Assembly (NCBI GenBank): GCA_919902985.1
Contig: CAKKSC010000028.1
Span: forward strand, 1-55,369
Direction of reading: 5' to 3'
Source: Desulfuromonadales bacterium
Lineage (GTDB): Bacteria > Desulfobacterota > JAENJC01
Length of the DNA stretch: 55,369 bases
The translations under genes and the position numbers were made by a program. The notes below the pieces were generated by a model. It was not told the DNA's origin. It saw only the letters and a program-made list of their open reading frames with translations, and made no database searches. Shown here piece after piece: positions 19,313 to 54,275 of this stretch; position 1 is the stretch's first letter, and every line of letters starts with the position of its first letter.

Positions 19313-20470
19313 TTATAGATACTGTTCCTTCCCCTCTTTTTCCAGCATTTCAACCACCTTCTTTACATCCTGCGCCCTTGACTTATCGCAAATGAGGAGG
19401 GCGTCCTCTGTTTCCACTACAATCAGGTTGCTTACACCGATAGTTGCAACAAGCTTCTTCGGAGAATATATTATGCAATCCTTAGTGTCAATTGATATAT
19501 GCTCCGCATGGGCAACGACACCCTGCTCGTCCCTCGGAAGGAGGTCGTCTATGGCAGTCCAGCTCCCGACATCGTTCCAACCGAAGGTTGAAGGAATAAC
19601 AAGGACGTTGTCGGCCTTCTCCATTACCCCGTAATCTATGGAGACAGAAGGAAGTTCCCCATAAACATCATTCAGCGCCCTCTCCTGCTCCTCTCTTCCA
19701 AGGGCCGGTTCCAGCCTCAGAAGGCCTAAATAGAGGTCAGGCATATGCCTTTCAATGGCCTTGAGTATGGTAGATACTTTGAAGACAAACATACCGGCGT
19801 TCCAGAGGTACTCGCCGCTCTTTACATACTGTTCAGCCGTTGCCCTGTCGGGCTTTTCTACAAATCGTTCGACATGGTATGCCTCAAACCTTGTCTGGGA
19901 CAGCCCCGATTCTACACCCCCTTTTGTCCCCCCCTTATTAAGGGGGGGACAAAAGGGGGAGGGCCGTAAATCTGGGACAGTCCCCTCTCTGACCACCGAC
20001 CCCTTCTTTATATACCCATATCCCGTCTCCGGCCTGTCAGGGGTCATTCCAAGGGTTATTATATAATCCCCGCTCTTTGCAACTTCGCAGGCATTTCTCA
20101 AGGTCTCAAGAAATATGTCTTTATCAAGGATAACATGATCGGCAGGAAGGACAGCCATCACACTTTCAGGGTCCCTTTTCTTAAGCCTCATTGCCGCAAG
20201 CCCGATGCAGGGCGCCGTGTTCCTGCCAACAGGCTCAGCTATAATGTTTTCAGACGGCACATCCTGGATATGACCGATAAGCTCCTCGACATGCTCTATG
20301 CCAGTGACGACATAGACATTTTCAGGGTCAACAAAAGGAAGCAGCCTGTCCACTGTCTGCCTTATCATGGACTCGGAACCGACTATATCAAGGAGCTGCT
20401 TTGGCCTCTTCTTCCTGCTCCTGGGCCAGAATCTGGCACCCTGCCCGCCTGCCATTATTACTGCGTACAT
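19313..20470 (-). CDS. manC: mannose-1-phosphate guanylyltransferase
   Basis: Transfers GMP from GTP to mannose 1-phosphate, giving GDP-mannose for surface polysaccharides. The 385 residues show the nucleotidyltransferase signature IMAGGQGARFWPRSRK and PKQLL, the motifs AEPVGRNTAPCIGLAA and LPADHVI, FVEKPDRATAEQYV, and FGWNDVGSWTA. There is no C-terminal isomerase domain. About residues 162-191 (GTVPDLR through VESGLSQ) are encoded by a 90-base palindromic repeat inserted in frame before HVERFVEKP. It lies on a loop between conserved blocks, so the enzyme may still work. Confidence 0.92.
   Translation of the reverse strand: MYAVIMAGGQGARFWPRSRKKRPKQLLDIVGSESMIRQTVDRLLPFVDPENVYVVTGIEHVEELIGHIQDVPSENIIAEPVGRNTAPCIGLAAMRLKKRDPESVMAVLPADHVILDKDIFLETLRNACEVAKSGDYIITLGMTPDRPETGYGYIKKGSVVREGTVPDLRPSPFCPPLNKGGTKGGVESGLSQTRFEAYHVERFVEKPDRATAEQYVKSGEYLWNAGMFVFKVSTILKAIERHMPDLYLGLLRLEPALGREEQERALNDVYGELPSVSIDYGVMEKADNVLVIPSTFGWNDVGSWTAIDDLLPRDEQGVVAHAEHISIDTKDCIIYSPKKLVATIGVSNLIVVETEDALLICDKSRAQDVKKVVEMLEKEGKEQYL
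19896..19985. repeat. in-frame palindromic element, GGGGACTGTCCC family, manC copy
   Basis: 90 bases bounded by TGGGACAGCCCC-GATTCTAC and GTAAATCTGGGACAGTCCCC-type ends. It carries a nested perfect 20-bp inverted repeat (19917-19936 against 19940-19959, CCCCCTTTTGTCCCCCCCTT) with a three-base loop. Related 60-base copies lie at 22671-22730 and 50750-50809. The length is a multiple of three and the manC frame stays open. Confidence 0.8.
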
Positions 20471-22277: not shown

Positions 22278-23108
22278 CTATTTCAGGTTCAGAAACTTAT
22301 GTACCTGTGGAATTACCCTTACATCCAAGAGCTTGCGGGTTACAATCTCCTGTAATCTAAGAAGACTCCCGGCATCCATATCAATAGGTGTCCGGGGCTG
22401 AATGATAAAGGGGATATTGACATCAACAGAATAAACAAGCTCAGCAGCCAACATTAGCTCATCCTCGGCGACCATACTGTCCACTACGACCTTGACAAAC
22501 ACCTCACTCTTGGATGCCATTTTAAGAAAGTCCCTGTGAAGGTTCCAGAAAGGCTTCACGCCGGAAACCGAAGGGAGCTTGATATCCATGCCTATTATGT
22601 CTATGAGATCGATAACCTCAGAAAGATGGGCAGGAAGGAGGCCGTTGGTCTCAAGATATATCTTTAGCTTGGGGACTGTCCCAGATTTACGGACGGAGTG
22701 CAGCGAAGTCGTAGAATCGGGACTGTCCCCGTTTTTGAACTCAGTAAGCCACTTCTTCAGGAAATCAGACTGTTCCAGCGGCTCACCTCCTGTAAGAGAT
22801 ATGGAGTGATGCAGGTTTTGATGTGTCTGATAGGAGTTGATGATCTCTGTGAGTTTTTCAGGTGAAACAGGATTCGGTAGGGGCGTATTGCCATACGCCC
22901 CTACGATATTGCACTCTGAACTTCGAACCCTGCTCTCCGGTGTGTCGCAGTAATTGCAGGTAAGGGAGCAGCCGGAGAACCTCACAAATATCTGTCTTAA
23001 CCCTACAAGCAGCCCCTCACCCTGGATGGATGAAAAAACCTCTGAGAGGTAGGCCTTTCTGACCCCTGACCCTTTATGCCCTTGAGGGTACTGACCCCTG
23101 CTTTTCAG
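22278..23108 (-). CDS. queE: 7-carboxy-7-deazaguanine synthase (radical SAM)
   Basis: A radical SAM enzyme of the queuosine pathway that turns carboxytetrahydropterin into 7-carboxy-7-deazaguanine. The cluster motif is [18 protein letters not shown] with the CxxxCxxC cysteines. Upstream and in frame lies [16 protein letters not shown] and VGLRQIFV, the conserved QueE N-terminus, so the protein begins well before the GTG at 22985. No ATG or GTG remains there: the segment preceding codon 23057 is GGGGTCAG repeat DNA. The first possible start is a CTG at 23108 overlapping the trpB stop. Two further repeats are absorbed in frame (22671-22730, 22877-22904). Confidence 0.85.
22671..22730. repeat. 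in-frame palindromic element, GGGGACTGTCCC family, queE copy
   Basis: Exactly 60 bases from GGGGACTGTCCC to GGGACTGTCCCC, with GATTTACGG and GTAGAATC next to the ends. In queE it is read on the minus strand and encodes a stretch containing [20 protein letters not shown]. The copy at 50750-50809 is read in the other orientation. Confidence 0.85.
22877..22904. repeat. GTAGGGGCGTA hairpin repeat inside queE
   Basis: A perfect 11-bp inverted repeat, GTAGGGGCGTA-TTGCCA-TACGCCCCTAC, with a six-base loop. It encodes [10 protein letters not shown] in queE without breaking the frame. A related hairpin is in the giant CHAT gene near 53665. Confidence 0.75.
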
Positions 23109-24289
23109 AGCTCCACCCCTTTTATCTTTGCCACATGCATCACGTCCTTGTCGCCCCGGCCCGAAAGGTTAACAATTATCACCTGGTTTTTCTTCATCTT
23201 CGGGGCTGCCTTAACTGCATAAGCCACTGCATGAGCGCTCTCAAGGGCAGGGATGATACCTTCCTCCTTAGAAAGGAGCTCAAAGGCCTTCAAGGCCTCA
23301 TCATCCGTGGCGTACGTATAATCTATCCTTCCCTGGTCCCTGAGATACGCATGCTCAGGCCCGACGCTGGCATAATCCAACCCGGCGGAGACCGAATGGG
23401 TCTCAAGCACCTGGCCGTTTTCGTCCTGAAGGAGGTAGCTCTTCGTCCCCTGGAGAACACCAAGAGAGCCACCTGCAAACCTTGCAGCATGTCTGCCGCT
23501 CTTTATACCCTCCCCTCCTGCCTCAACTCCAGTCATCTTGACTCCCTTATCCTTCATGAAGGGATAGAACAGCCCCATGGCATTACTCCCTCCGCCAACA
23601 CAGGCGATCAGCAGGTCAGGGAGCTTCCCCTCAAGCTCCATTATCTGCTTTCTTGCCTCTTTCCCTATCACGGACTGGAAGTCCCTGACCATAACAGGAT
23701 AAGGATGAGGTCCGAAGACCGTGCCCATAATATAGTGGGTCGTTCTTACATTTGTAGTCCAGTCTCTCAAGGCCTCACTTATGGCGTCCTTAAGTGTCCT
23801 TGTCCCTATATCTACCCTGTTCACCTTCGCGCCCAGGAGCTTCATCCTGAATACATTGAGAGATTGCCTCTTTACATCCTCGGCCCCCATATATATCTCA
23901 CACTCAAGGCCGAACATGGCGGCCCCTGTGGCTGTTGCGACACCGTGTTGTCCTGCCCCTGTCTCAGCTATTATCCTCTTCTTTCCAAGCTTTCTGGCAA
24001 GGAGTACCTGGCCGACAACGTTGTTTATCTTGTGTGCCCCTGTATGACAGAGATCTTCGCGTTTAAGATAAATCCTGGCCCCTCCAAGCCTCTTTGTAAG
24101 CCTCTCTGCATGATAAAGAGGAGTGGCCCTTCCGACAAACTCCCGCAGGTAGTAAGCCAGTTCCTTTCTGAACTCCTTATCCTTCTTAAACCTCTCATAC
24201 ACCTTTGTAAGCTCAATGAGAGCAGGCATCAGGGTCTCAGGGACGTATCTCCCGCCGTAGATTCCAAAATGTCCCTTTTTATCAGGCAT
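23105..24289 (-). CDS. trpB: tryptophan synthase beta chain
   Basis: Condenses indole and serine to tryptophan with pyridoxal phosphate. The ATG at 24289 ([13 protein letters not shown]) has GGAGGGG five bases upstream and is preferred over the ATG at 24301; length is 394 residues. Motifs are [13 protein letters not shown], the Schiff-base Lys87 in [25 protein letters not shown], the phosphate-binding [12 protein letters not shown] and the C-terminal [10 protein letters not shown]. No trpA or other trp gene is in the window. The queE frame begins at the trpB stop, suggesting one transcript. Confidence 0.96.
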
Positions 24290-24377: not shown

Positions 24378-26303
24378 TCATCTCTCCAATTGATTGTTAA
24401 CTATCATCTCATAGGTAACCTGATCTATGGCCAGCAACTTCTTTTCCAGCCGCTGCAGATAATCATCGCTGTCCTCTCCATAAAAAGAGCGTGCCTCCAG
24501 ACGATTTCCAAGAGAATGATAGAGATACCCGCGAGCGGTGATAATGCCGACCGAGTTTTTATCGCACACGTAAGCGAATTCATCATCCTTTTGGAATAAC
24601 GAAACTCCGAGGGTTGCAAAACGCTCCTTTATACCGAGCAGGTCAAGGACAGTCGGCGCCAGGTCTGCCTGGGAACCTATAGTTGAAACCGTTTTATGTT
24701 TAAAGAGCTTAGGGGAATAGATAACCAGCGGGGTATGATAGCGCTCCGGATTTTGAAATGAACGGTAGGCATCGAAGTTGTGATCTGCTGTGAAAATAAA
24801 TATCGTATCGTCAAACCACGGGGCCGCAGCCGCTGCCTTCATGAACTGTCCCAGGCTCCAGTCAGAATAGTGGAGTGTGTTCAAAAATCCGTTCTCCGTG
24901 TTTTCTCCATGAGGGTATTTTTCAAGCCCATTTCCCGGCCGTATGTATGGTGTATGAGTGGTGCCGGTAAACAGGAACGCGAAAAACGGCTTCTTTGCTG
25001 CATCCAGTTTTGATTTAAGGAACATCATCGATTCGTAATCCCATCCAAATACGGACTTTTGCCCTGAATAGTCGAGCAGCATAGGCATATCTTCCATTCC
25101 ATAATAGTATTCAAATCCGGTCGCCCTGGCAATGGCGTCTACCCTGAAAGACCGGCGCCTGGAACTCTGGGTAAAGATGGTTTCGTAACCGTTGTCCCTG
25201 AGTATATTGCCGATCTTCGGGAAATTGCCGGCCTCAAGGCCAAAACCGAGATTGGGAAGACCGATAAGAGGCGGCAACCCGGTAAGAGATGCCTGTATCC
25301 CTTCGATACTGCGCTGTCCTACGGCATAAAAATTTGTAAACTGGAGGCCGTTGTTCGCCAGGCGGTCAAAGTTAGGTGTAACCCCAAAATTGTTATTGCC
25401 AAAGCTGTCTATGTAAAACGGGCTCCAGCTCTCCATAAGCATGAGGACTACGTTATGGCGACTGTGTGCCCCATCCCCACCCCAACCCTCCCCTTGAAAG
25501 GGAGGGAGAGAAGTTGCTTCCTCTCCCTCAGGGAGAGGATTAAGGTGAGGGTGGGGTTCTTTCCCATCGTTAACCGGCGTCCTCGCTATCCGCTGCGCCT
25601 CTTCGAAAGAGGTGTAAAAGTGATGGTTGACGGTATTCTTTGCAGCCCTGGCATGGTGGTAAAGGGTAAACACCCCGTTGAGCACCAGGTTGCTCTGGGC
25701 CGTACTGCCGGACTCGAACGCATCGATGATGTTTATGGGCTTATCTGAAAATGTCCCCCTTATACCTAAGACCATGAACCCTGCAAAGAGAAGGAATTTT
25801 ATTGGCATGAGGCGGCTTTCCCTGGTATCCCTTTCCAGAATAAATCTCCACAACAAAAAGAGCGCTGCCGCAAAGAGCAGGAAAAGCGCCAGATGAGGCT
25901 TATAGCTGCCTAAAGCAAACTCAAAAATAAAACCAGCATCGTTCCCTATCACAAGTAGCTCACTCGTCATGTGACGCTTTACATCGCCAAAATAGATTAC
26001 ATCCCCTGCAAGAAGAAGGGTCAGAAGGATGAGGATGACATACATCCCCCATCCCCATATCCTCTGCCAGATACTGGCATTAGCAAAGCGAAGGGGGAGG
26101 TTAAAGAAAAACAGCATGACTAAAAATGCTGTCAGCAGGATTGACAAATCAAAGCGGACCCCGTCAATAACTGAAAAAGCCAGCTTTCCGCCGGAGATGG
26201 TTGAAAATGTACCTCTATATGTAAAATATAGCGCTGCCCGCGCCATCGAAAACACCGACAGCCCGACACCTATAAATAAAAAGCTCTTTCTCCATCTGGT
26301 CAC
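24378..26303 (-). CDS. membrane sulfatase-fold phosphotransferase (LTA-synthase family)
   Basis: A 641-residue inner-membrane enzyme with about five transmembrane helices in the first 190 residues and a large periplasmic alkaline-phosphatase-fold domain. The metal-site and nucleophile motifs are VVLMLMESWSPFYIDSFG and GQRSIEGIQASLTGLPPL, with a later FTADHNFDA. Gram-negative relatives transfer phosphoglycerol or phosphoethanolamine to envelope glycans or lipids; the substrate here is unknown. It closes the envelope operon, overlapping the lipid kinase gene by four bases. About residues 248-276 are a repeat insert (LNPLPEGEE, PPFQGEGWGGDG) just before the catalytic domain. Confidence 0.85.
   Translation of the reverse strand: MTRWRKSFLFIGVGLSVFSMARAALYFTYRGTFSTISGGKLAFSVIDGVRFDLSILLTAFLVMLFFFNLPLRFANASIWQRIWGWGMYVILILLTLLLAGDVIYFGDVKRHMTSELLVIGNDAGFIFEFALGSYKPHLALFLLFAAALFLLWRFILERDTRESRLMPIKFLLFAGFMVLGIRGTFSDKPINIIDAFESGSTAQSNLVLNGVFTLYHHARAAKNTVNHHFYTSFEEAQRIARTPVNDGKEPHPHLNPLPEGEEATSLPPFQGEGWGGDGAHSRHNVVLMLMESWSPFYIDSFGNNNFGVTPNFDRLANNGLQFTNFYAVGQRSIEGIQASLTGLPPLIGLPNLGFGLEAGNFPKIGNILRDNGYETIFTQSSRRRSFRVDAIARATGFEYYYGMEDMPMLLDYSGQKSVFGWDYESMMFLKSKLDAAKKPFFAFLFTGTTHTPYIRPGNGLEKYPHGENTENGFLNTLHYSDWSLGQFMKAAAAAPWFDDTIFIFTADHNFDAYRSFQNPERYHTPLVIYSPKLFKHKTVSTIGSQADLAPTVLDLLGIKERFATLGVSLFQKDDEFAYVCDKNSVGIITARGYLYHSLGNRLEARSFYGEDSDDYLQRLEKKLLAIDQVTYEMIVNNQLER
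25474..25558. repeat. in-frame palindromic element, CCCCACCC family
   Basis: About 85 bases ending in CCATCCCCACCCC and GAGGGTGGGG, with inner CCCTCCCCTTGAAAGGGAGGG and CCTCTCCCTCAGGGAGAGG hairpins. It encodes HPHLNPLPEGEEATSLPPF and QGEGWGGDG in the sulfatase-fold protein. A related copy is at 47052-47128. Confidence 0.75.
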
Positions 26304-27189: not shown

Positions 27190-28293
27190 TTAAGGTCTTA
27201 CCATCCCCTTAACTCTTTCAAAAACACTATCAGCAGTGATTTTCTTCATACATTCAAAATGTCCCTTTGGGCAACGATCACTACCATGGAGGGTACAGGG
27301 GCGGCATTTCAGTTCACTTTCAACTACAACACTCTTTCCAAGAGGGGAAAAACCAAATCCCCGGACTGTAGGGCCGAAGATAGCTACTACCGGGGTACCA
27401 ACTGCCGTCGCCATGTGCATAGGGCCGGAATCGTTTGTGACAAAGACACTACACCTCTTTATGAGGGCAGCGGTCTCCCTTAGTCCAGTCTTTCCAGCGA
27501 CAGAAAAGGCATCTATACCTATACCACCGGATACCCTCTCACTAAGTTCAACCTCGTCAGGTCCGCCAAAGATCAGGACCTTTGCACCTAGTTCTGCTAC
27601 AGCCATCTTGCCTAATTCAATAAAACCATCTTCCAGCCACCTTTTGGTCTGCCATCTGGCGCCAGGATTAAGACCTACGATGGTTGAGCCTTCAGATACA
27701 GAATGCTGAGCAATAAACGACGCGGCTCCCTTTTCTTCCTCAAGGGAAAGATAAATAGTTGGAACTGCCTCAGATTTTAAAAATCTCCCATCACCCCTCT
27801 TTTCAAAAAAGGGGGATAAAGTCTCCCCCTTTGGAAAAGGAGGATTATGGGGGATTTTGAATGAATCCCTTACCCCAGGCGGGGGCAATGCAGATAAGTA
27901 GGCATCAAGAGTATGTTTCGTATTCGGTCTGAAACCATGAAGTAGCAGCCTCCTCCTGAGAGTCTGCTTATCATAACGAAGGATCTTTGAACCTGGAATC
28001 AAGGCAGAAATGACCCTGCTCCTCAGATTGCCGTGAAGGTCTATGACATGTGTGTAACCTTCTTTCCTGAGTTCCCCTGCTATTTCAAGCAACCCCTTTA
28101 GCCCCATGTGCCTGCTGCCGTCAAAAGGTATTATCCTTCTTAAGTTCGGGTTCCCTAAAAGAAGTTCATGATACTCTTTTTTTACGAGAAAATCCAGATT
28201 AGCATTGGGATGACTCAGTTTTAGAGCAGCTATAACAGACGTAGTCAATACCACATCACCGATGGAACCAAGGCGTATTATAAGGATCTTCAA
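27190..28293 (-). CDS. GT9 LPS heptosyltransferase (WaaF-like)
   Basis: A 367-residue GT9 enzyme that adds an ADP-activated heptose to the LPS inner core. It starts MKILIIRLGSIGDVVLTTSV and carries VGLNPGARWQTKRWLEDGF and the sugar-nucleotide motif VTNDSGPMHMATAVGTPVVAIFGPT split over FVTNDSGPMHMATAVG. The C-terminal CRPCTLHGSDRCPKGHFEC cysteine cluster is shared with the gene at 29416. Residues about 145-172 (HNPPFPKGE, SPFFEKRGDG) are encoded by an inserted repeat at 27778-27859. It overlaps the next GT9 gene upstream by four bases. Confidence 0.9.
   Translation of the reverse strand: MKILIIRLGSIGDVVLTTSVIAALKLSHPNANLDFLVKKEYHELLLGNPNLRRIIPFDGSRHMGLKGLLEIAGELRKEGYTHVIDLHGNLRSRVISALIPGSKILRYDKQTLRRRLLLHGFRPNTKHTLDAYLSALPPPGVRDSFKIPHNPPFPKGETLSPFFEKRGDGRFLKSEAVPTIYLSLEEEKGAASFIAQHSVSEGSTIVGLNPGARWQTKRWLEDGFIELGKMAVAELGAKVLIFGGPDEVELSERVSGGIGIDAFSVAGKTGLRETAALIKRCSVFVTNDSGPMHMATAVGTPVVAIFGPTVRGFGFSPLGKSVVVESELKCRPCTLHGSDRCPKGHFECMKKITADSVFERVKGMVRP
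27778..27859. repeat. in-frame palindromic element, AATCYCCCAT family
   Basis: About 82 bases with ends AAAAATCTCCCATCACC and ATTATGGGGGATTTTG (imperfect inverted pair), and inner CCCCTCTTTTCAAAAAAGGGG and CTCCCCCTTTGGAAAAGGAG hairpins. It lies inside the GT9 gene without shifting its frame. Confidence 0.7.
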
Positions 28294-32895: not shown

Positions 32896-34029
32896 CTAAC
32901 CCTGAATCCCGGCAAGGATGGCATTTATAAACCTTTCTTCATTTCCATTCATATTCAGGCCTATCTCTAAGTAATATATCGGCATACCCATCTTATCCTT
33001 AAACCGCTCAATTTTCACTGCGTCTTTTTCTGTTGTTAATATAAATTCCGCGCCTGCTGCCCTTGCCTTTTTTTCGACTCCTTCCATGTCTTTCGCCGTA
33101 TAACTGTAATGGTCAGGAAAAGAGATCTCAGAGACCAAAGTGCAATCCAAAGATGACAGGAGGGTAATAAATGATGACGGGTTTGCAATTGCCGAAAGAG
33201 CTGTCACCCTATGCCCCGAAATGGCATCTAAACCTGTTTTTGCGCCATCCCTGAGCGAAACAAGCCGTTCAGGCCTGTAACTGCTTTTGAATACGGCAGC
33301 TTCGGGCTGCTTATCCGTGATACTGTCAGCTATCCGGCCAGTATCGGAAGAGGCCTTTGTTATCAAAAAGATATCGGCCCTCTTCATACCGGTCAAAGGC
33401 TCCCTCAGAGGCCCTCTCGGGAGGAGATGGGCATTCCCAAAACCCTTCTCTCCATCAACTAAGAGTATGTCAAAGTCTCTCTTTAATCTTACGTGCTGAA
33501 AACCATCATCTAAAATAATGACATCCAGAGGTAACCTTTCCAGGGCGTATCTGCCGGCCTCATACCGATCTGCGCCAACAAATACTGGGACGTTCTTGAG
33601 CCTCCTTGCCAGCATGTAGGGCTCATCCCCTGCCTCCTCCGGCCCAAGGAGGAGTTGATGACCGTCAGATACTACACCTATACCCTTACCTTTTCTTTTG
33701 TACCCCCTGCTTAGTATCGCTGCCTTAACTCCACGCTCATTCAGTCTGCGTGCAATGAATTCACCCGTTGGCGTCTTTCCTGTCCCGCCAACGGTTATAT
33801 TCCCAACAGATACAACCTTGCAGCCAATCTCTCTTGCCTTGAATAAGCCTGACGAATAGAGAGCCAGTCTGATCCTTATTGCAGCCCCGTAAAGAATTGA
33901 GAGGAGATACAAAGGATAAAAAAGTATCCGGCAAAAAAAACCGGCATCCCGTCTATATGCAATGTAATCAAAAAGTCTTTCCAATCGGTCTTTTATAGCA
34001 TACTTCACAACCTTAGTCAAAACAGTCAA
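32896..34029 (-). CDS. lpxK: tetraacyldisaccharide 4'-kinase
   Basis: Phosphorylates the 4' position of the lipid A precursor at the inner membrane. The P-loop [18 protein letters not shown] is at residues 74-91 and the lipid-facing N-terminal helix is [21 protein letters not shown]. Further motifs are [32 protein letters not shown] and TTEKDAVKI. The start TTG at 34029 overlaps the stop of the REP transposase. The original start and promoter may therefore have been replaced, leaving the whole envelope operon dependent on transcription from within or beyond that element. Confidence 0.93.
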
Positions 34030-34742
34030 CTTCTTAAAAGGGGACAGATTTGTTTTCTATCTTCTTTTGGCCTTCCCTGCTTTCTGAATTCCACGCGACG
34101 CCCGATCTTTTTAGCAACTTCTTCAACAAATCGATTACTTCCCGTCAATTGACCACGTTGTATTGCCTGCCGTATTATGCCTTCTTCCATCTCCGAAATC
34201 GGACTTTTTACGAATTCCTTATATCTCTCTTGTCGTTCTTTGACTGTTCTGCCCAAACGCATATAACCGGGGTCAAAATCCAGCCAGGTTGAAGATAAAC
34301 CGATCTTGTCTTTATAGCTGGACCATTTGTACTTTTCCGGATCATCCACCATGCCCGCCCTGACAGGGTTCAGTTCCACATAGCGACAGCAGGCCAACAG
34401 GTACTCATCTCTATCGACAGGACTTGACTTGTAGCGCCCCTCCCATAATGTTCCTCTTCTTCCCTCTATTTTATTTACATATCGAGTTTGTCGCCCGAAA
34501 ATACGCTTCATCAGCAATGCCAAATTCTCAACATCTTTACCAGGGTCGATTATTAGATGGATATGGTTTGTCATGAGGCAATAGGCATATACCTTACAAC
34601 ATAGCTCCTTCTTCCACCCCTTCAGATTGTCGAGATAGTAATGATAATCATCATCAGTGGCAAAAACTGCCTGCCTGTTATGGCCCCGCTGGATTATATG
34701 GTGGGGATAGTTTGGTAGTACGACCCTTGATGTTCTTGGCAT
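34026..34742 (-). CDS. REP-associated tyrosine transposase (RAYT)
   Basis: A 238-residue Y1 transposase of the IS200-like/RAYT group. The start is MPRTSRVVLPNYPHHIIQRG. The HUH metal motif is TNHIHLIIDPG with H60 and H62. The likely catalytic Tyr104 is in LWEGRYKSSPVD, followed by CRYVELNPVRAGMV. It should cut and join single-stranded DNA at flanking hairpins. Its last codons (KQICPLLRS) are encoded by the element end AAACAAATCTGTCCCC. No disabling mutation is seen, so it may be active. It sits at the head of the lpxK operon. Confidence 0.9.
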   Translation of the reverse strand: MPRTSRVVLPNYPHHIIQRGHNRQAVFATDDDYHYYLDNLKGWKKELCCKVYAYCLMTNHIHLIIDPGKDVENLALLMKRIFGRQTRYVNKIEGRRGTLWEGRYKSSPVDRDEYLLACCRYVELNPVRAGMVDDPEKYKWSSYKDKIGLSSTWLDFDPGYMRLGRTVKERQERYKEFVKSPISEMEEGIIRQAIQRGQLTGSNRFVEEVAKKIGRRVEFRKQGRPKEDRKQICPLLRS

Positions 34743-46189: not shown

Positions 46190-46218
46190 TTGACAGAAGC
46201 CTGAATTGTTGGTAAAAA
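46190..46218 (+). promoter_or_regulatory. predicted promoter, leaderless
   Basis: TTGACA (46190-46195), a 17-base spacer and TAAAAA (46213-46218). The expected start is about 46225, the A of the ATG of the small membrane gene. Confidence 0.45.
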
Positions 46219-46224
46219 GTATCT

Positions 46225-46500
46225 ATGCCGGACAACTCTCATATAATTATCATATCGCTTATATTCCTCTTCCTGGCTCTAATCAACATACCATTCGGCA
46301 TGGTCCGCTCCACTGTGCCCCGTTTCTCAAGAAAATGGGGGAGATGCATCTATATACCGATTCTTTTAAGTATACTTATGAGAAAGCTTGCAATGGTAGG
46401 TTATACATTCATACCGGTATTCCTTGTTGCAACGGTAACCGGACAGGTACTGGGAAGCAGGATAAAGAGCAATCAATGTATAAAGACAGAACAGGAATAA
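46225..46500 (+). CDS. small two-helix membrane protein
   Basis: A 91-residue protein with two membrane helices, IIIISLIFLFLALINIPFG and YIPILLSILMRKL/YTFIPVFLVATVTGQVLG, joined by a basic loop MVRSTVPRFSRKWGR. The pattern (NIPFG then RxxFSxKW) recalls a conserved family of small bacterial membrane proteins of unknown function. It overlaps the giant gene start (46476) by 25 bases, so the two may be coupled. The overlapping frame extending the giant ORF upstream (46206-46475) is regarded as a shadow of this gene. Confidence 0.65.
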   Translation: MPDNSHIIIISLIFLFLALINIPFGMVRSTVPRFSRKWGRCIYIPILLSILMRKLAMVGYTFIPVFLVATVTGQVLGSRIKSNQCIKTEQE

Positions 46501-49500
46501 CCACTCTCCTGGCCCTCTTCTCCCTTTTATTCGTTTCAGCAGCCTTTCCTTCCACATCCTTAGCAGCAACTACAACACTGAACACTCCCTTAAAACTTTC
46601 CACCCACACCGCTGACGACTTTCAACCCGCCGTTTCTCCAGACGGGAAGATGGTGGCCTATGTATCCAACAGAAGCGGGAACAACGACATCTGGCTCGTT
46701 CCCATAAACGGCGGCCCTGCAAGCCAGATGACATTCCATACCGCATCCGATTCAGCTCCGGCATGGAGCAGGGACGGGAAAAGGCTTGCCTTTGCCTCTC
46801 TCAGGGAGGACTCAAAAGGTGATATATGGGTGCTGGATCTGGAAGGGAATATAGAGTCAAGGATAACAGACTCCAGGGGCGCTGAATCATATCCATCGTG
46901 GTTTCCAGATGGGAAAAGGATTGCATTTTCAAGAGGTGAAGGGATCTGGAGCATCGATCTGCCGACCCATAAAGAAGAACGCCTGTTTAACGGCTTCTAT
47001 CCTTCTGTCTCACCCGACGGGAAATATATAGCTTTCATATCGTTAGACGATTCCCCCTCACCTCAATCCTCTCCCGCCAGGGGAGAGGAGGCAGAAAAAG
47101 AGTCCCTACCCTCCTCTGGAGGGAAGGGCAGTATATATCTTTACAAAACAGCCGACAATAAGATAACAAGACTCACCTCCGGCGAATTCTCAGACGCCTT
47201 CCCATCCTGGTCACCCGATGGAAGGGAGATTTATTTCTCAAGGTTTGCCGAGGATACAAACAACGACGGCCTGATTGACATAAAAGACAATCCCTCAATC
47301 TGGAAGATTGAATTTAGTGCAGAATCAGACAACTCAAAACTCAAAACTCAGAACTCAAAATTTGCCGTTCAACTCACCTCCGGCTCTTCATACGAACTCT
47401 TCCCGTCCGCAACAGATAACAGCGTCATATACGCCGCAAGCAAGGGGAAGGATATGGATATATACAGGGTTCAGAGAAATGGGGAGATACCAAAACTAAA
47501 AACGGCCAGGGAACAGCTTGACCTCGCATATCGGCAGAGAGACGCCCTGCACAGGCTCCTGGCGTTCAGGAAGGTCTACCTTTCCGGCTTTCCCAAGGAC
47601 GATGGGCTGTTTTCAGAGGCCAGATACCAGGTGGCCCTTACATATATGGAATTGGGTCACAAAAAGGATGCGAAGAGGGAGCTTGAATCCGTCATCTCGT
47701 CTTTCCCTGAAGAGAGAAGATATTCATCTCTCGCCAGGGTCGAACTCGCAAAAATTAAAGCCGCAGATGCAGTATCCGCAGGTGACAAAGACAGGGCATT
47801 GAAAGAAGTAAAAACCCTCAAGGGGATCATAGACGAATACAAGGACCAGGCATATTCTCAGGCCATGGCTCAGTTGGAGATAGGCAATATATATATATCA
47901 CTGAAGGACGATGTCCAGGCGCTGAAGGAGTATGAAAAGGTCCGTGCGCTTTACTCCTCTAAAGCCGCAGCAGTAGCTCAGGCAAGACTCAGAATGGCTG
48001 ATATATATATTTCCTACGGCGACGAACTGAGGATTATAGACACCTATCTGTCTATTATTAAAGATTACCCGGAGTCCTTAGAGTGGTGCCTGACAGGGTC
48101 CCAGAGGGTCCTTTCGCTTATAGAAAGGATCGAGGATGAAAGAGAACGCGTCGCAAGCTACAGGGAGATTATTTCAAAATATAAAGGGCTCCCGTACCTC
48201 CCTGCCCTTGCTCAGTACAAGGTCGGGGAGTTCTACCATGTCAGGGGCAGATATGAGGAGGCCGTTTCAGAGTACAAGCGGGTCCTGGATGATTTCCCTT
48301 CAGAGACATCCATTGCGGATGAGGCATCTATCGCTATGGCAGAGGTTTGGTTATCAAAGGGATCTCACGGCAACGCCCTCTCCATCTATGAAGGATTGAT
48401 GAAAAAGGGGGTTCTCCGCGCCGGGAGGTTATTCATAAATACGTCGCTTGAAAAGGGGAGGATGGAGCTTCTCGGAAAGGAACCGGCCCAGGCGATAAAA
48501 AGCTATAAGTCTGTAATAGACCTTGACTACAGCGATATCAGGGCGCACAGAGGTTTGATAGAGGCTTATGCAGCTAAAGGCGAGCCTCAAAGAGCTGTAG
48601 CCATATATACGGAAGAGGTAAAGAAGTTTGGTGACAGCGACACAGCCCACTATGCCCTTGGCCTTGCCTATACCTACCTTAACCCTCCTTCTCTAAATTC
48701 GGCGGAGTCGGAAATAAAAACGGCACTGTCTCAGAATTACTCCCTACCCTTTGCCCACCAGACCCTTGGCTGGATATATGAAATCAAGGACAAGACGGAA
48801 AACAGCAGTACCATGGGACTGGCTGTGGACGAATATCTGGCGGCCCTTGCCCTCTTTCCACCGGAGCAGAAAAAGGAGGCATCCGACCTCCTGTTGAATA
48901 TCGGAAACGGTTACTCCGCCCTCGGAAACCATGAAAAGGGATATGAATTCTACAAGAAGAGGGTGGAAACCGGAGTTGGATTTGATGACCGGATGAGGGA
49001 AGCGCTCTTTTACGAAAACCTGGGGAATGCGGCCTCCAGGACAGGTAAATATACGGAGGCGGTTCCTTACTACCTGAAGTGCCTCGGTTATGCCAAAAAG
49101 GTCAGGGACAGGAAATGGGAGTTGAAGATAACCGAGGAGATGGCACTGCTGTATCAGGAGGCCAAAGACTATGCGAAGGCAGCCGAATATTTTTCTCAGG
49201 CGCTGAAGATAGCTGAAGAGGCAAATATGGCAGAATCAAGGGCTGTCATATTGAGAAATATAGCATACAACCTCTATCACGCGGGAAAGATAGAGGAGGG
49301 GATCAGATACTTCAACAAAAGCCTGGATGCCCTTAACGTAAAAGAGGATATCTCATCATCTTCCGGCGGCCTCCTGACCATCAAAAAGGCCCTGGCCCTG
49401 GGGAAGGAAGGCTCCGAGGCATTCATGGGTTTTGAAAAGTCGGGGGAGGAAAAGCTTATTCACTCCTATCTCGGAAGCGCCTACTCAGAAACAGGGGAAT

Positions 49501-52500
49501 ACGAATCTGCATTGAACGAACTTCTAAAGAAGCTGGAGGGAATACCGGAAGGGAGAGATACAGAAAGAGGCATTGTACTTAACAACATTGGGTTCCTCTA
49601 CTATCAGATGGGGGATGCGGGAAATGCCTATCGTTACTTCAACAATTCTCTGGAAGTGTCGGGGAAGGCAAAAAACTTCACAGGCGAGATGGTGAACATC
49701 ATAAATATCGGCCTGCTGGCAACACAGAGCGAATGCGGAGTGGAGAATGCGGAATGCGGAATTGAAGAAACGATAAAGCTTCAGGAGAGAGGGATAAGCC
49801 TTATAGATTCGGAAAAAAGGGGAAAAGAGTACCTGCCTTACCTGAAGAACAATCTGGGGCTGCTGCATCTAAAAGCAGGGGGCAGTGGCCAGTGGCCGGG
49901 GGTCAGTAAACAATCCAGAGAGTTGGAATCTTTAGTGAAAAACTCTTTAAATCTCATCAGCCAGGACAGAGACCATCTGGAAAAGGCCACAGCAGAGTTC
50001 TCGGAAGGGCTGAATGCACTTGGAAGGGATAAAGACCTCTGGCTTGAGGCAGTCCTGGAGCTTAACCTCGCCAGATCCCTCTATCATCACGGCAATGATA
50101 AGGATGCATCAGTCCATCTCAATTCGTCTATGGAAATTGCGAATAAAGGCCCCTTTAATGACCTGAAATGGCGTTGCCTGTCGCTGCTGGCTGATATAGA
50201 CTGGAAGAACAAGGGGAAACACCTTGAGGATGCTGTGGCTGTTCTGGAAGGAACATCTCGCCCCCCCGTTAAGGATGCCGAAACCCTTTACAAGGAACTG
50301 ATTTACCTCCTCTTTTCAAACGGCAAGATAGACGATGCCTTTACTTACGCTGAACGGATGGCTGGGAGCAGGACCAAGCACGAGGCATCAATGGCAAGGT
50401 TCTCCCTGCCAAAAGAGGAAGCACCTCTCTCAGCAAGGGATGTTCAATGGTTTCTGGACGAGAAGACGGCCCTCGTCAGGTATCTGCTTACGGATAGAGG
50501 CCTACTGATCTGGTTGATTGATGCCGATAATATCCAGGGTAAGGTCGTAAACGTTTCAGAGAAAGAGTTGAGGGAAGGGGTAGATGACCTGTTGTCATCC
50601 CTGGACAAGAAAGATATTAATGATCACCTCTCACCACTTGTCATCAGGCCCATTGCCCCTCTACTGGCCAACAAAAAAAGGGTTTATATCATGCCGGATG
50701 AAATCCTCTTTTCTGTCCCTTTTGCTGTGCTGAAGATTGATAATAAAAAGGGGACTGTCCCGGATTTACGGACGCAGCGAAGCGAAGTCGTAGAATCGGG
50801 ACTGTCCCCTTTTCTTATAGATACCTTCGAGCTCTCTTACCTGCCAAGCGCATACATACTCAATGCTGCATACGAGAAGAGGAACCTCAACAAGGTAAAT
50901 ATACTCATATCCCAGGGAAAGGATTATCCTGATAGTTATGTTGAGGGTATAGGCTCCAGTACGCCGATATTCGCGGCGCTGAAGAGCGACAGGACAAAGT
51001 TCCTCGATATGGCATCCAACTATGGGATGATTCATATAACAGACTCCCTTTCTATCAACAAAACAGCCCCATTCAGGTCATCGCTTGATTTCAGGAACGG
51101 CAAGCTCTTCCTTTCAGAGCTGATCCCATTGAAGATGAATCCGAACCTGGTGGTGATTACAGCTGTCAGCGGTCAGCCTTCAGCGATCAGCCTTTCTGAC
51201 GCCATGCAACCATTGCTATTTGCAGGCGCCCCTTCCGTCCTTGTAAAGACAACTCCAACCGACAAGGATACAGAGGAGCTCTTCATGAAGGAGTTCTATG
51301 GTGCATTCAGGAAGGAATCTGCTTCAGGGGCGCTTTCAAGGGCACAGACGGCGCTAAAGGCAAAGGGGATGAGCCCCGGCATTTGGGCAGGTTATGCGCT
51401 ATACGGCTACACAGGGATGAACCAGGAAGAGGAAAGGAAGTATGCATCCCGGAAGGTGGCTGATATCATGGACGCAGCCATTGAGGCCTATTCCAAGGAG
51501 AACTGGAGGATGGCCATCAGGAGATTTGAAGAAGGTCTCCTGTTCCTCAGGACCATAGGGGCAAAGGAAGACCTGGGGAACATTTACCAGGCACTGGCAA
51601 AGGCCTGCGCAAACTCAGGGGAGTATGCGAAAGGGGCTTCTTACCAGGATCAATTCATAAAGGCCGGTTCAGGGAAGCTCTCCAAACCAGAGCTTGCTGA
51701 AGGGTACAGGAGTCTGGGAGTTCTTTATTCCAGAGCCGGTGAAGACAAAAAGGCAGAGGAGGGCTTGATAGAGGCCCTGAAGATATGGAGGGAAGAAGGA
51801 AACAAAAAGAGCCTGTCCGAAGGATACCGCACCGTTGCCCTCTTGCAGGAAAAAGGCGGAAGTTATAGCGCATCTATTGAATCATTTAACACAGCCCTTA
51901 GCATTGACAGGGAGATAGGAAACAGAGAATCGGCAGGGCAGGACCTCTGGGAGACAGGAAGAATATACTACCTTCGCCTGAGCAGTCTTGACGAAGCAAT
52001 GAAGTTTTATAAAGAGGCCCTCTCCGTATTCAAGGGGCTTGGAAACAGTGAAAAGACCGCCAGGGTCCTTCTGGACACAGGCCTTGTCTATGAGCAGGGA
52101 GGGGAATACGACTCCGCAAAGACCAATTACCTCGAGGGGATCAAGATCGCGGAAGAGATAAATGACAGGGTTGCATATTCAAGAGGAACGCTTTATCTCG
52201 CAAACGTTGCCTGGCATATGGGCGACTATCAGGAGGTGTTTAAATACCAGAGGACAGCCCTGGAGGTCGCCATAGAGCTAAAGGACAGGAAGCAGGAGGC
52301 CATGGCCCAAAACCTGGCTGGGCTTACTTATATGAATCTTGGCATGCTGGAAAAGGCGCTGGAGGCCTTATCAAAATCTCTCTTTATTTCAATAGATACA
52401 GGCGACAAACTCGATGCAGCCGCTGCATACAACAACATAGGGATTGTCCAGAGAGAACTGGGGAACCTTGATAAATCCGTAGAAAGCTTCAAGAACGCCC

Positions 52501-54275
52501 TGGCCATTGACACGGAGCTGAAGACAAAATGGGGAATGGCCTATGACATGAGGAACCTGGGGATAAGCTATGAAAGGATGGGGAGGGTAGATGATGCTTT
52601 GTTGAACCTCCGGTCATCCCTGTCCCTGTCGCGGGAAATAGGCGAACGGAACAATGAGGCCATGACCCTTTACTCCCTCGGTACGCTCTACATGAAGACA
52701 GGGAAAGAGGAGGAGGCATCAAGGACCCTGAAAGAGGCCTACCACATAGGTAAGGAACTGAACGTCCCGGAGGTCACCTGGCGTTCCCTCAAGGCCCAGG
52801 CATCCCTCTATGCCAAGACTGGTAAACCTGCCGATGCCTACAAGGAGCTTAAGGAGGCCATCAACCTCGTTGAAAAGATGAGGGGTAGGATCAAGGTAGA
52901 TGAGTACAAGACCGGCTTCCTTGAGAACAAGTCCGACCTTTACGAAGAGATGGTTATTCTCCTCCTCGGGATGGGTAGAAGTGAGGAGGCCTTTAACTAC
53001 TCCGAGAGGGGGCGGTCAAGGAACTTCATAGACATGCTTGGAAACCAGAAGTTGAATCTAAAGTCCGCTGGTAACCAGAACCTCCTGTCTAAGGAAAGGG
53101 CCCTGAGGGGAAGGATCGATAGCCTTGAAGAGAGGGCCAGAGGAAATAGCTCGCTTCTGGAAGAGCTTATAAGGGCCAGGAAGGATTATGAGGGGCTGCT
53201 GATAGAGATAAAGGAGGAATCACCTGAGCTGGCATCCTTTGTGACGGTCGAACCCCCTACCCTTCCTGATATACAGAAGACCATCCCGAATGATACTGCC
53301 CTTCTTGAATACATGGTCACAAAGGACGGTATCGTTATATGGACAATAGACCGTGAAACGATAGAGTCATCAATAGTGCCTATGACAAGGGAACTCCTCA
53401 AAGAAAAGGTTGTCAGATACAGGGAGATGATGGAACAGGTCACGCCTCTGGAAAAGGAATCGGTTGAACTTTACAACCTCCTGATAAGACCTGTAGAACG
53501 GCTTATCTCAGGGACCAAATACATCGGGATAATACCTCATGACGTGCTGCACTATCTATCATTCTCATCCCTGTTTGACGGCAAACAGTATCTCATGGAG
53601 GCCCATCCCATCTTCTACTCTCCAAGCGCAAGCGTGATGAAGATGATCTCTGATCGCCGTGTAAGGGCGTATAGCGATACGCCCCTGCAAAAACTGCTCG
53701 TCATAGGGAACCCTGATCTGGGCGACAGCGCCCTTGACCTTCCATTTGCAGAAAGGGAGGCTGGGAGCATAGGCCGGGAGTTTGAAGGGTCTGAGATCCT
53801 TGTGAGAAAAGAGGCCACAGAGACCAGGGTCAGGGAGGATATAGGAAGGTTTGAAGGTGTACACTTTGCGTCACATGGTATATATGACAGCTCAACCCCT
53901 CTGTTCTCAAGCCTCAAGCTGACCAGGGACTTTGCAAATGACGGGAACCTGACCGCCAATGAGGTTTTTTCCCTTAACCTGAGGGCCTCCATAGTCATGA
54001 TGAGCGCCTGCCAGACGGGGCTTGGTAAACTCACCACAGGTGATGAGATCATAGGACTCAACCGGGCCTTTATCTATGCTGGAGCTCCGTCCATCATTTC
54101 TACCTTATGGCGCGTGAATGATGCTGCCTCAGCCATGCTTGTAAAGCGATTTTACAGGTACTCCAAAAACAGCGACCTTGCCGAATCGATCCGCCTTGCC
54201 CAGATGGCCGTCAAAGAATACTACCCGCACCCGGCATACTGGGCAGGGTTCGGGTTGACGGGGGATTACAGGTAA
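46476..54275 (+). CDS. giant exported PD40-TPR-CHAT-TPR-CHAT protein
   Basis: 2599 residues from the ATG at 46476. A signal peptide (GITTLLALFSLLFVSAAFP) leads to PD40/TolB-type propeller repeats (about 48-340; VSPDGKMVAYVSNRSG, WSPDGREIYFS). TPRs fill about 376-1310. The first CHAT-like domain (about 1315-1652) is degenerate: His becomes Ser1524 (HITDSL) and Cys becomes Val1564 (ITAVSGQ). More TPRs (about 1662-2185) lead to a second CHAT domain with His2467 (VHFASHG) and Cys2512 (MMSACQTG), both intact. The C-terminus YWAGFGLTGDY is typical. CHAT domains are caspase-like proteases. The protein would act in the periplasm or on the surface; target unknown. Several repeats are built into it. 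Confidence 0.88.
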   Translation: MYKDRTGITTLLALFSLLFVSAAFPSTSLAATTTLNTPLKLSTHTADDFQPAVSPDGKMVAYVSNRSGNNDIWLVPINGGPASQMTFHTASDSAPAWSRDGKRLAFASLREDSKGDIWVLDLEGNIESRITDSRGAESYPSWFPDGKRIAFSRGEGIWSIDLPTHKEERLFNGFYPSVSPDGKYIAFISLDDSPSPQSSPARGEEAEKESLPSSGGKGSIYLYKTADNKITRLTSGEFSDAFPSWSPDGREIYFSRFAEDTNNDGLIDIKDNPSIWKIEFSAESDNSKLKTQNSKFAVQLTSGSSYELFPSATDNSVIYAASKGKDMDIYRVQRNGEIPKLKTAREQLDLAYRQRDALHRLLAFRKVYLSGFPKDDGLFSEARYQVALTYMELGHKKDAKRELESVISSFPEERRYSSLARVELAKIKAADAVSAGDKDRALKEVKTLKGIIDEYKDQAYSQAMAQLEIGNIYISLKDDVQALKEYEKVRALYSSKAAAVAQARLRMADIYISYGDELRIIDTYLSIIKDYPESLEWCLTGSQRVLSLIERIEDERERVASYREIISKYKGLPYLPALAQYKVGEFYHVRGRYEEAVSEYKRVLDDFPSETSIADEASIAMAEVWLSKGSHGNALSIYEGLMKKGVLRAGRLFINTSLEKGRMELLGKEPAQAIKSYKSVIDLDYSDIRAHRGLIEAYAAKGEPQRAVAIYTEEVKKFGDSDTAHYALGLAYTYLNPPSLNSAESEIKTALSQNYSLPFAHQTLGWIYEIKDKTENSSTMGLAVDEYLAALALFPPEQKKEASDLLLNIGNGYSALGNHEKGYEFYKKRVETGVGFDDRMREALFYENLGNAASRTGKYTEAVPYYLKCLGYAKKVRDRKWELKITEEMALLYQEAKDYAKAAEYFSQALKIAEEANMAESRAVILRNIAYNLYHAGKIEEGIRYFNKSLDALNVKEDISSSSGGLLTIKKALALGKEGSEAFMGFEKSGEEKLIHSYLGSAYSETGEYESALNELLKKLEGIPEGRDTERGIVLNNIGFLYYQMGDAGNAYRYFNNSLEVSGKAKNFTGEMVNIINIGLLATQSECGVENAECGIEETIKLQERGISLIDSEKRGKEYLPYLKNNLGLLHLKAGGSGQWPGVSKQSRELESLVKNSLNLISQDRDHLEKATAEFSEGLNALGRDKDLWLEAVLELNLARSLYHHGNDKDASVHLNSSMEIANKGPFNDLKWRCLSLLADIDWKNKGKHLEDAVAVLEGTSRPPVKDAETLYKELIYLLFSNGKIDDAFTYAERMAGSRTKHEASMARFSLPKEEAPLSARDVQWFLDEKTALVRYLLTDRGLLIWLIDADNIQGKVVNVSEKELREGVDDLLSSLDKKDINDHLSPLVIRPIAPLLANKKRVYIMPDEILFSVPFAVLKIDNKKGTVPDLRTQRSEVVESGLSPFLIDTFELSYLPSAYILNAAYEKRNLNKVNILISQGKDYPDSYVEGIGSSTPIFAALKSDRTKFLDMASNYGMIHITDSLSINKTAPFRSSLDFRNGKLFLSELIPLKMNPNLVVITAVSGQPSAISLSDAMQPLLFAGAPSVLVKTTPTDKDTEELFMKEFYGAFRKESASGALSRAQTALKAKGMSPGIWAGYALYGYTGMNQEEERKYASRKVADIMDAAIEAYSKENWRMAIRRFEEGLLFLRTIGAKEDLGNIYQALAKACANSGEYAKGASYQDQFIKAGSGKLSKPELAEGYRSLGVLYSRAGEDKKAEEGLIEALKIWREEGNKKSLSEGYRTVALLQEKGGSYSASIESFNTALSIDREIGNRESAGQDLWETGRIYYLRLSSLDEAMKFYKEALSVFKGLGNSEKTARVLLDTGLVYEQGGEYDSAKTNYLEGIKIAEEINDRVAYSRGTLYLANVAWHMGDYQEVFKYQRTALEVAIELKDRKQEAMAQNLAGLTYMNLGMLEKALEALSKSLFISIDTGDKLDAAAAYNNIGIVQRELGNLDKSVESFKNALAIDTELKTKWGMAYDMRNLGISYERMGRVDDALLNLRSSLSLSREIGERNNEAMTLYSLGTLYMKTGKEEEASRTLKEAYHIGKELNVPEVTWRSLKAQASLYAKTGKPADAYKELKEAINLVEKMRGRIKVDEYKTGFLENKSDLYEEMVILLLGMGRSEEAFNYSERGRSRNFIDMLGNQKLNLKSAGNQNLLSKERALRGRIDSLEERARGNSSLLEELIRARKDYEGLLIEIKEESPELASFVTVEPPTLPDIQKTIPNDTALLEYMVTKDGIVIWTIDRETIESSIVPMTRELLKEKVVRYREMMEQVTPLEKESVELYNLLIRPVERLISGTKYIGIIPHDVLHYLSFSSLFDGKQYLMEAHPIFYSPSASVMKMISDRRVRAYSDTPLQKLLVIGNPDLGDSALDLPFAEREAGSIGREFEGSEILVRKEATETRVREDIGRFEGVHFASHGIYDSSTPLFSSLKLTRDFANDGNLTANEVFSLNLRASIVMMSACQTGLGKLTTGDEIIGLNRAFIYAGAPSIISTLWRVNDAASAMLVKRFYRYSKNSDLAESIRLAQMAVKEYYPHPAYWAGFGLTGDYR
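47052..47128. repeat. CCCTCACC-family element in the PD40 region
   Basis: CCCCCTCACCTCAATCCTC, TCCCGCCAGGGGAGAGG and CCCTACCCTCCTCTGGAGGG encode PSPQSSPARGEEAEKESL, then PSSGGKG. It is related to 25474-25558. The propeller frame continues unbroken on both sides. Confidence 0.65.
50750..50809. repeat. in-frame palindromic element, GGGGACTGTCCC family, CHAT-1 copy
   Basis: Exactly 60 bases, GGGGACTGTCCC to GGGACTGTCCCC, encoding [20 protein letters not shown] within the first CHAT-like domain (residues about 1425-1445). It is the opposite reading of the queE copy. Confidence 0.85.
53665..53684. repeat. GGGCGTAT hairpin repeat
   Basis: A perfect eight-base inverted repeat, GGGCGTAT-AGCG-ATACGCCC, encoding RAYSDTPL in the linker of the second CHAT domain. 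It is of the same type as 22877-22904 ([10 protein letters not shown]). Confidence 0.65.

Follow-up and report, generated by a model that had tools for sequence, protein, structure and literature searches.

In this study, we analyzed a stretch of 55,369 nucleotides (hereafter the window) from a groundwater bacterium and found that short repeats of unrelated families lie in frame inside its genes, that one and the same protein linker carries unlike repeats in congeneric genomes, and that a hairpin is nested within a copy of another repeat. These patterns are probably best accounted for by the blind insertion of several unrelated repeat families combined with purifying selection, which explains most of what was observed. 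The window corresponds to contig C28 in a genome of 2.13 Mb and 88 contigs (G000, about 95% complete), and two genomes of the same genus, G001 and G002, were found at 86-95% protein identity. All genomes compared are fragmented assemblies in which some contigs end inside repeats, genes were called with a custom codon-usage script rather than a standard gene caller, and repeat counts in G000 refer to the whole genome.

Repeat families in the window and the genome

The earlier note on this DNA had placed repeats at five sites inside genes and had assigned each to a different family. All five sites do hold a dispersed repeat within an open frame, but together they represent three families (A, B, and C). 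Family A is typified by a palindromic repeat at 25474..25558 (minus strand), which encodes aa 249-277 of a 641-aa sulfatase-fold protein (24378..26303, minus strand); it has 34 genome matches at E ≤ 0.001, of which 31 were used once three opposite-strand duplicates had been set aside. Family B, a long hairpin with nine genome matches, is typified by the copy at 27778..27859 (minus strand), corresponding to aa 144-174 of a glycosyltransferase family 9 (GT9) protein (27190..28293, minus strand). Family C is a GTAG-type REP hairpin of 27-29 nt with ends GTAGGGGC and a 12-bp stem, present as 20 exact-end copies in 2.13 Mb with 0 control matches. Its copy at 22877..22904 (minus strand) has a perfect 12-bp stem and encodes the peptide VGAYGNTPL at aa 28-37 of a queE-like radical SAM protein that contains two repeats (22278..22985, minus strand). 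The two remaining sites, for which separate families were considered and rejected, lie in a giant PD40/TPR/CHAT protein (46206..54275, plus strand) with at least six repeat-derived segments. The repeat at 47052..47128 (plus strand), in the PD40 region and absent from G001 and G002, is a diverged member of family A (nhmmer E 1e-5). The hairpin at 53661..53688 (plus strand), in the second CHAT domain, is of the C type with two changes, since it matches the queE repeat type at all but 2 of the fixed bases (0 matches with ≤3 substitutions in 50 shuffles); positions 53665-53684 cover the hairpin core only.

A fourth family, D, which is absent from the earlier note, is 60 bp long with ends GGGGACTG / GGGGACTGTCCC and has 29 genome matches, and three of its copies lie in frame inside genes of the window. 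One of them encodes aa 84-106 of the queE-like protein (22671..22734, minus strand), and another lies in the giant protein (50743..50815, plus strand), where the G002 contig stops within its own copy. The third lies in frame in a manC-like gene (19313-20470) and is split by a nested hairpin (copy 19894..19994, minus strand), a perfect palindrome with 21-bp arms (19917..19959) on both sides of which the frame is kept. Across families, match lengths range from 20 to 102 nt, and 7/7 stretches that were folded proved more stable than their shuffles (z -2.7 to -6.4).

Heptamers form a further class. Three runs in the giant gene, near 47340, 49730, and 49885, had been described as repeat-coded; they are repeats, and the correction is that they consist of the heptamer units AACTCAA, AATGCGG, and AGTGGCC, the last two read by eye, as a strict period scan caught the AACTCAA run only. 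The AACTCAA array (47331..47350, plus strand; peptide NSKLKTQNSK) is missing from G001 and replaced by another heptamer in G002, the AATGCGG repeat (49730..49764, plus strand; peptide ECGVENAECG) is common to G002, and at the place of the AGTGGCC repeat (49883..49906, plus strand; peptide GSGQWPG) G002 differs. Among periods 5-10, period 7 was the commonest in the sampled stretches (9 versus 0 to 3).

Host genes and position within proteins

Domain maps place several inserts between functional parts of their hosts. The sulfatase insert (aa 249-277) stops shortly before the Sulfatase domain (aa 284-558), the GT9 insert (aa 144-174) separates two stretches that match 3tov (aa 3-144 and 189-324), and the insert in cobyric acid synthase (CobQ; aa 245-254) lies upstream of the amidotransferase part, which starts near aa 291. 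Linkers and loops thus appear to be the places where protein structure tolerates inserts, a reading drawn from domain maps rather than from structures. The queE-like protein had 0 PDB matches at E 1e-5.

The hosts are recognizable members of known families. Among 18 insert-bearing G000 proteins scanned, 12 scored above a curated NCBIfam cut-off and the other six had weaker matches. In ten of the 12 the family match spans the insert, namely in leucyl-tRNA synthetase (LeuS), CobQ, MurE, HisH, MnmG, QueA, CobJ/CbiH, protoporphyrinogen oxidase, GcvPB, and a radical SAM protein; Tgt also scored above the cut-off. LeuS and MurE are presumably essential. An artefact, in which misassembly or gene calling fuses intergenic repeats into frames, might be suspected from the fragmented assemblies, from contigs that end in repeats, and from the two G002 sulfatase contig ends, which differ by two heptamers. 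However, family matches run across the inserts, and the same insert recurs at the same site in independent assemblies (both G000 and G002 have family D in MnmG, QueA, and Tgt), so that we consider an artefact extremely improbable.

Some genes and regions were repeatedly occupied. A cobalamin region (L168, C9:48500-66500, with CobQ, CobJ/CbiH, and CbiE/CbiT families) is exceptionally rich in repeats, with seven D matches and two C copies in about 15 kb. Queuosine genes are repeated hosts as well, including queA, tgt, and queE (L040, L058, and window 22278-22985) in addition to queC in another MAG (L330). Furthermore, a 1214-aa methyltransferase-like protein (L169:1884-5528) contains two in-frame copies of family A (aa 247-274 and 837-864); its PglX-type matches are weak and under the cut-off.

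Random insertion, reading frame, and selection

The earlier note had suggested that so many families inside genes point either to insertion being only weakly selected against or to a process biased towards in-frame events. We screened 89 repeat copies in G000 for spanning frames with coding-like flanks, counted a copy as intragenic when it was interior to a gene, and hand-picked 24 by a long spanning frame and codon score (24/89; D 11/29, C 6/20, A 5/31, B 2/9). D copies at gene ends (C9:56535, C9:63749, and C66:8924) and C copies in weak frames (C21:89631 and C85:8089) are not among the 24. The expected in-gene fraction was computed for full-length copies from a coding density of 0.865, the proportion of stop-free frames as measured, and a net length uniform modulo three, under the assumption that every open in-frame insertion survives. 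Against this expectation, full-length copies were found in genes in 9/27 cases for D (expected 0.53), 6/20 for C (0.57), 4/11 for A (0.46), and 1/6 for B (0.42). The probabilities of finding as many or more in genes were 0.99, 0.997, 0.82, and 0.96, respectively; no family exceeded the null, and the fractions of D and C fell under it (P 0.03 and 0.01). The share of copies in genes (24/89) therefore does not surpass what random insertion and the subsequent loss of broken genes would yield, an outcome that the earlier note had itself named as refuting its interpretation. Weak selection against insertion holds only narrowly, as a tolerance of inserts in loops and in the linkers between domains.

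Net lengths were compared among orthologous regions of the three congeners, by counting differences of 12 nt or more in aligned length and calling a difference genic when both genes were called. A multiple of three was found in 37/44 genic differences, a figure that is partly circular because gene calls require open frames, versus 28/72 intergenic ones (intergenic p 0.32); by unique site the counts were 29/35 and 22/62. Of the two, it is the intergenic count that is informative, and no preference is seen there. The 7/44 genic exceptions were, in order, trpB of G002 (215, counted twice), L094/L266 (104), L253/L300 (50), the G002 sulfatase contig end (29), L168:14662 near a gene start (40), and L168:1099 (23), and the first four rows did not look repeat-made by eye. 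The trpB of G002 (L247 9705) is without 215 bp found in the window (23502-23731) and in G001, which represents either an assembly error or a broken gene.

Could the insertion process itself favour in-frame events, by lengths of three or codon-phased targets? Genic events are almost always in frame, the core of D measures about 60 bp, and the frames of D and C are skewed, all of which speak for such a process. Yet the lengths of the elements do not fit it. An element length that is a multiple of three was rejected on the lengths of the families, since each of the six C copies inside genes measures 28 or 29 nt. For D insertions with an empty relative, net lengths were 51, 57, and 69 when the insertion was genic and 60 and 63 when it was not, so that the junctions of D vary. 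Given that the genic fraction does not exceed the null, that lengths depart from three, and that intergenic differences show no modulo-three enrichment, insertion that favours the frame is unnecessary, and we regard it as very improbable; a selection sieve is enough for the modulo-three pattern. Under blind insertion with purifying selection, unrelated short families (C REP hairpins, D, the long hairpins A and B, and heptamers grown by slippage) would repeatedly enter the genomes of the genus without respect to reading frame, and inserts that break a gene or a fold would then be purged. Because selection would remove these, the surviving genic inserts would be in frame, open, and located in linkers or loops.

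Different repeats at the same joint in sister species

That many families behave alike inside genes, as the earlier note had stated, was borne out and can be extended, for different families were found at one linker in sister species. The sulfatase linker carries family A in G000, a heptamer array (CATCCCT) in G002, and another heptamer in G001. The GT9 linker carries family B in G000 and G002 and a short C-type hairpin, in frame, in G001. At queE site 2, G000 and G002 have family D and G001 has a B-like hairpin, and at queE site 1 each of the three species has a different GTAG-like hairpin, with heptamers added in G002. CobQ contains one C hairpin in G000, two in G001, and heptamers, a hairpin, and D in G002. 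The giant gene of G002 carries D, heptamers, and a double GTAG hairpin where G000 is empty, and in CHAT-2 G001 has a 28-nt C hairpin that resembles that of G000 in site, length, and frame and is unlike it in its interior. In total, about 23/29 in-frame genic sites were repeat-made and about 10 differed in type between species; repeat types were classed by hand, and these cross-species counts do not represent a random sample because many G001 and G002 contigs, as well as stretch L168, were selected for carrying D copies. The G002 sulfatase linker lies on two contig ends (L247 12270-12634 and L248 240-520) whose heptamer arrays differ by two units, and this 14-bp difference shifts the frame, possibly as a slippage switch or as an effect of assembly.

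Two histories might give this pattern. In the first, every shared linker took up a single repeat in the ancestor; divergence, or overwriting by ectopic gene conversion from other copies, would then have changed it. Such a history agrees with the GTAG-like hairpins of queE site 1 and CobQ, present in all three species with differing interiors, and with the CHAT-2 hairpins of G000 and G001, of the same length with different interiors; the same two options are posed for RPE-4/6/7 in PMC3767692. In contrast, the changes from A to heptamer (sulfatase), from B to C (GT9), and from D to a B-like hairpin (queE site 2) need insertion or replacement, and relatives have empty sites, as for the giant-gene D found in G002 only. 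We take an ancestral repeat with later divergence to be possible, although on the whole doubtful. Under repeated blind insertion and purifying selection, a linker with one insert would tolerate later inserts, swaps, and slippage, and each species may therefore come to have its own repeats at a shared joint, since a filled linker would tolerate further change.

Family D beyond the genus and reading-frame skew

The exact D pattern was found in 33 genome-contig stretches, which come from MAG records of Nitrospirae and of some Deltaproteobacteria; G002 itself is among them (JACQYJ01, 100% match). Outside G002, 14/24 D copies lay in frames that were 200 aa or longer and had a coding score. With a looser cut, 16/24 copies outside the genus gave a frame, of which L313 was dropped as its start codon lies after the insert, and 15 were scanned. 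All 15 matched a named family (for example PurL, chorismate synthase, QueC, RimO, CobB, and YedF), and the match crosses the D insert in ten. Family D is thus often intragenic outside the genus too, because 15/24 exact copies lie in genes with family matches.

Frames were used unevenly, as judged from copies counted individually without correction for descent. Outside the genus, 10/15 D copies in genes share a single frame out of the four that are open, which reads x followed by 16 protein letters not shown here (p 0.0008 versus 1/4), and pooling over clear cases only gave 12/22 (p 0.003). For family C, 8/8 intragenic copies counted in G000 use VGAxxxTPL, one of two frames (p 0.008), or 12/14 when sister species with their two exceptions are included. 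The D frame is not exclusive, for the copies within G000 use at least three. The skew goes beyond a simple sieve and could come from milder selection against some peptides or from a phase preference; the skews of D and C are worth further test.

A related explanation is that the encoded peptides were retained as useful, or selected as harmless. The preferred frames of D and C, together with family A peptides rich in P, G, and E, are in favor of it, but D uses several frames in G000, the host proteins are unrelated, and one peptide is swapped for another at the same joint in sister species, which makes peptide retention quite improbable. A broader proposal would treat linkers as shared landing pads that, after a first repeat has opened them, continue to exchange unrelated repeats, with favoured D and C frames that encode tolerated peptides and with D adapted to intragenic rather than extragenic life across Nitrospirota-like MAGs; we consider this proposal unlikely.

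Candidate mover

Families A-D appear to be mobile, and their mover is perhaps a Y1/HUH transposase. Seven Y1_Tnp (PF01797) genes were found in G000, whose Y1 transposase genes have inverted repeats that start with GGGGACAG. In the window, a Y1_Tnp (PF01797) gene at 34026-34742 lies between inverted repeats that start with GGGGACAGATTTATT, similar to the TIRYT elements described in PMC3733652. None of the seven G000 genes and two further genes in relative or outside contigs was flanked by D or C. Likewise, GTAGGGGC/GCCCCTAC was absent from all seven PF01797 loci with flanks of up to 1.5 kb, giving no RAYT link for C. As to a MITE-type target-site duplication for A, B, and D, empty sites were few and net lengths varied.

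Comparison with known systems

Among the closest known parallels are the Rickettsia palindromic elements (RPEs). Several RPE families lie in frame in unrelated housekeeping genes that remain unbroken (PMC10969869; PMC3767692; PMC3733652), and different RPE groups occupy one ortholog site, for which a hotspot and a common origin were posed (PMC3767692). For RPE-4/6/7, PMC3767692 puts forward both an ancestral repeat with divergence or gene conversion and independent insertions, and it names queA (tRNA ribosyltransferase-isomerase) as an RPE host. In PMC3733652 (Di Nocera and others 2013), GTAG REPs of 20-40 bp inside ORFs are proposed to sit neutrally in linkers or loops, different REPs are described at about one recB site in two Xanthomonas species, and transposases with GGGGWSAS inverted repeats (TIRtrons/TIRYT) are reported. 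MITEs inside Coxiella ORFs are also described in PMC5896051.

First, G000 repeats resemble RPEs in lying in frame in ORFs of unrelated function (24/89), in the presence of differing families at one site, and in queA being a target in G000 too. They differ from RPEs (Rickettsia/Wolbachia, about 100-150 bp) in that the host is not a member of the Rickettsiales, in the size of the elements (28-102 nt), and in that heptamer arrays share sites with palindromes. As to the conserved peptide frame of RPEs, the frames of D and C are skewed here, and that of D is not exclusive. Second, family C is like GTAG REPs in being a palindrome of 20-40 bp with the tag at its end, in a stem within 5-13 bp, and in its many dispersed copies; unlike GTAG REPs, families A, B, and D are without the tag, and no RAYT flanked by C was found. 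Third, the D ends GGGGACAG on one strand fit GGGGWSAS, the TIRYT motif given in PMC3733652, whereas no transposase gene flanked by D sequence was found among seven own genes and two in relative or outside contigs.

A text search on the D ends gave only primer-like or title-unrelated matches. In the partial library searched, no literature was found on intragenic REPs in Nitrospirae, and neither this lineage, nor the D sequence, nor heptamer arrays that share linkers with palindromes were encountered. Short tandem heptamer repeats are known in cyanobacteria under the name STRR. The arrays described here are like STRR-type repeats in their seven-base tandem units and unlike them in lying inside genes, at the linkers of palindromes.

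These genomes offer a free-living counterpart of the RPE case in Rickettsia, in which three congeners have different repeats at one protein joint. Because the three differ at the same joint, the tempo and mechanism of repeat-made change in protein length become testable. They also hold a warning, as intragenic palindromes in such genomes require no in-frame insertion machinery. The case is of a known kind, that of Rickettsia and REP-rich bacteria, extended by mixed repeat classes that turn over at the same joints.
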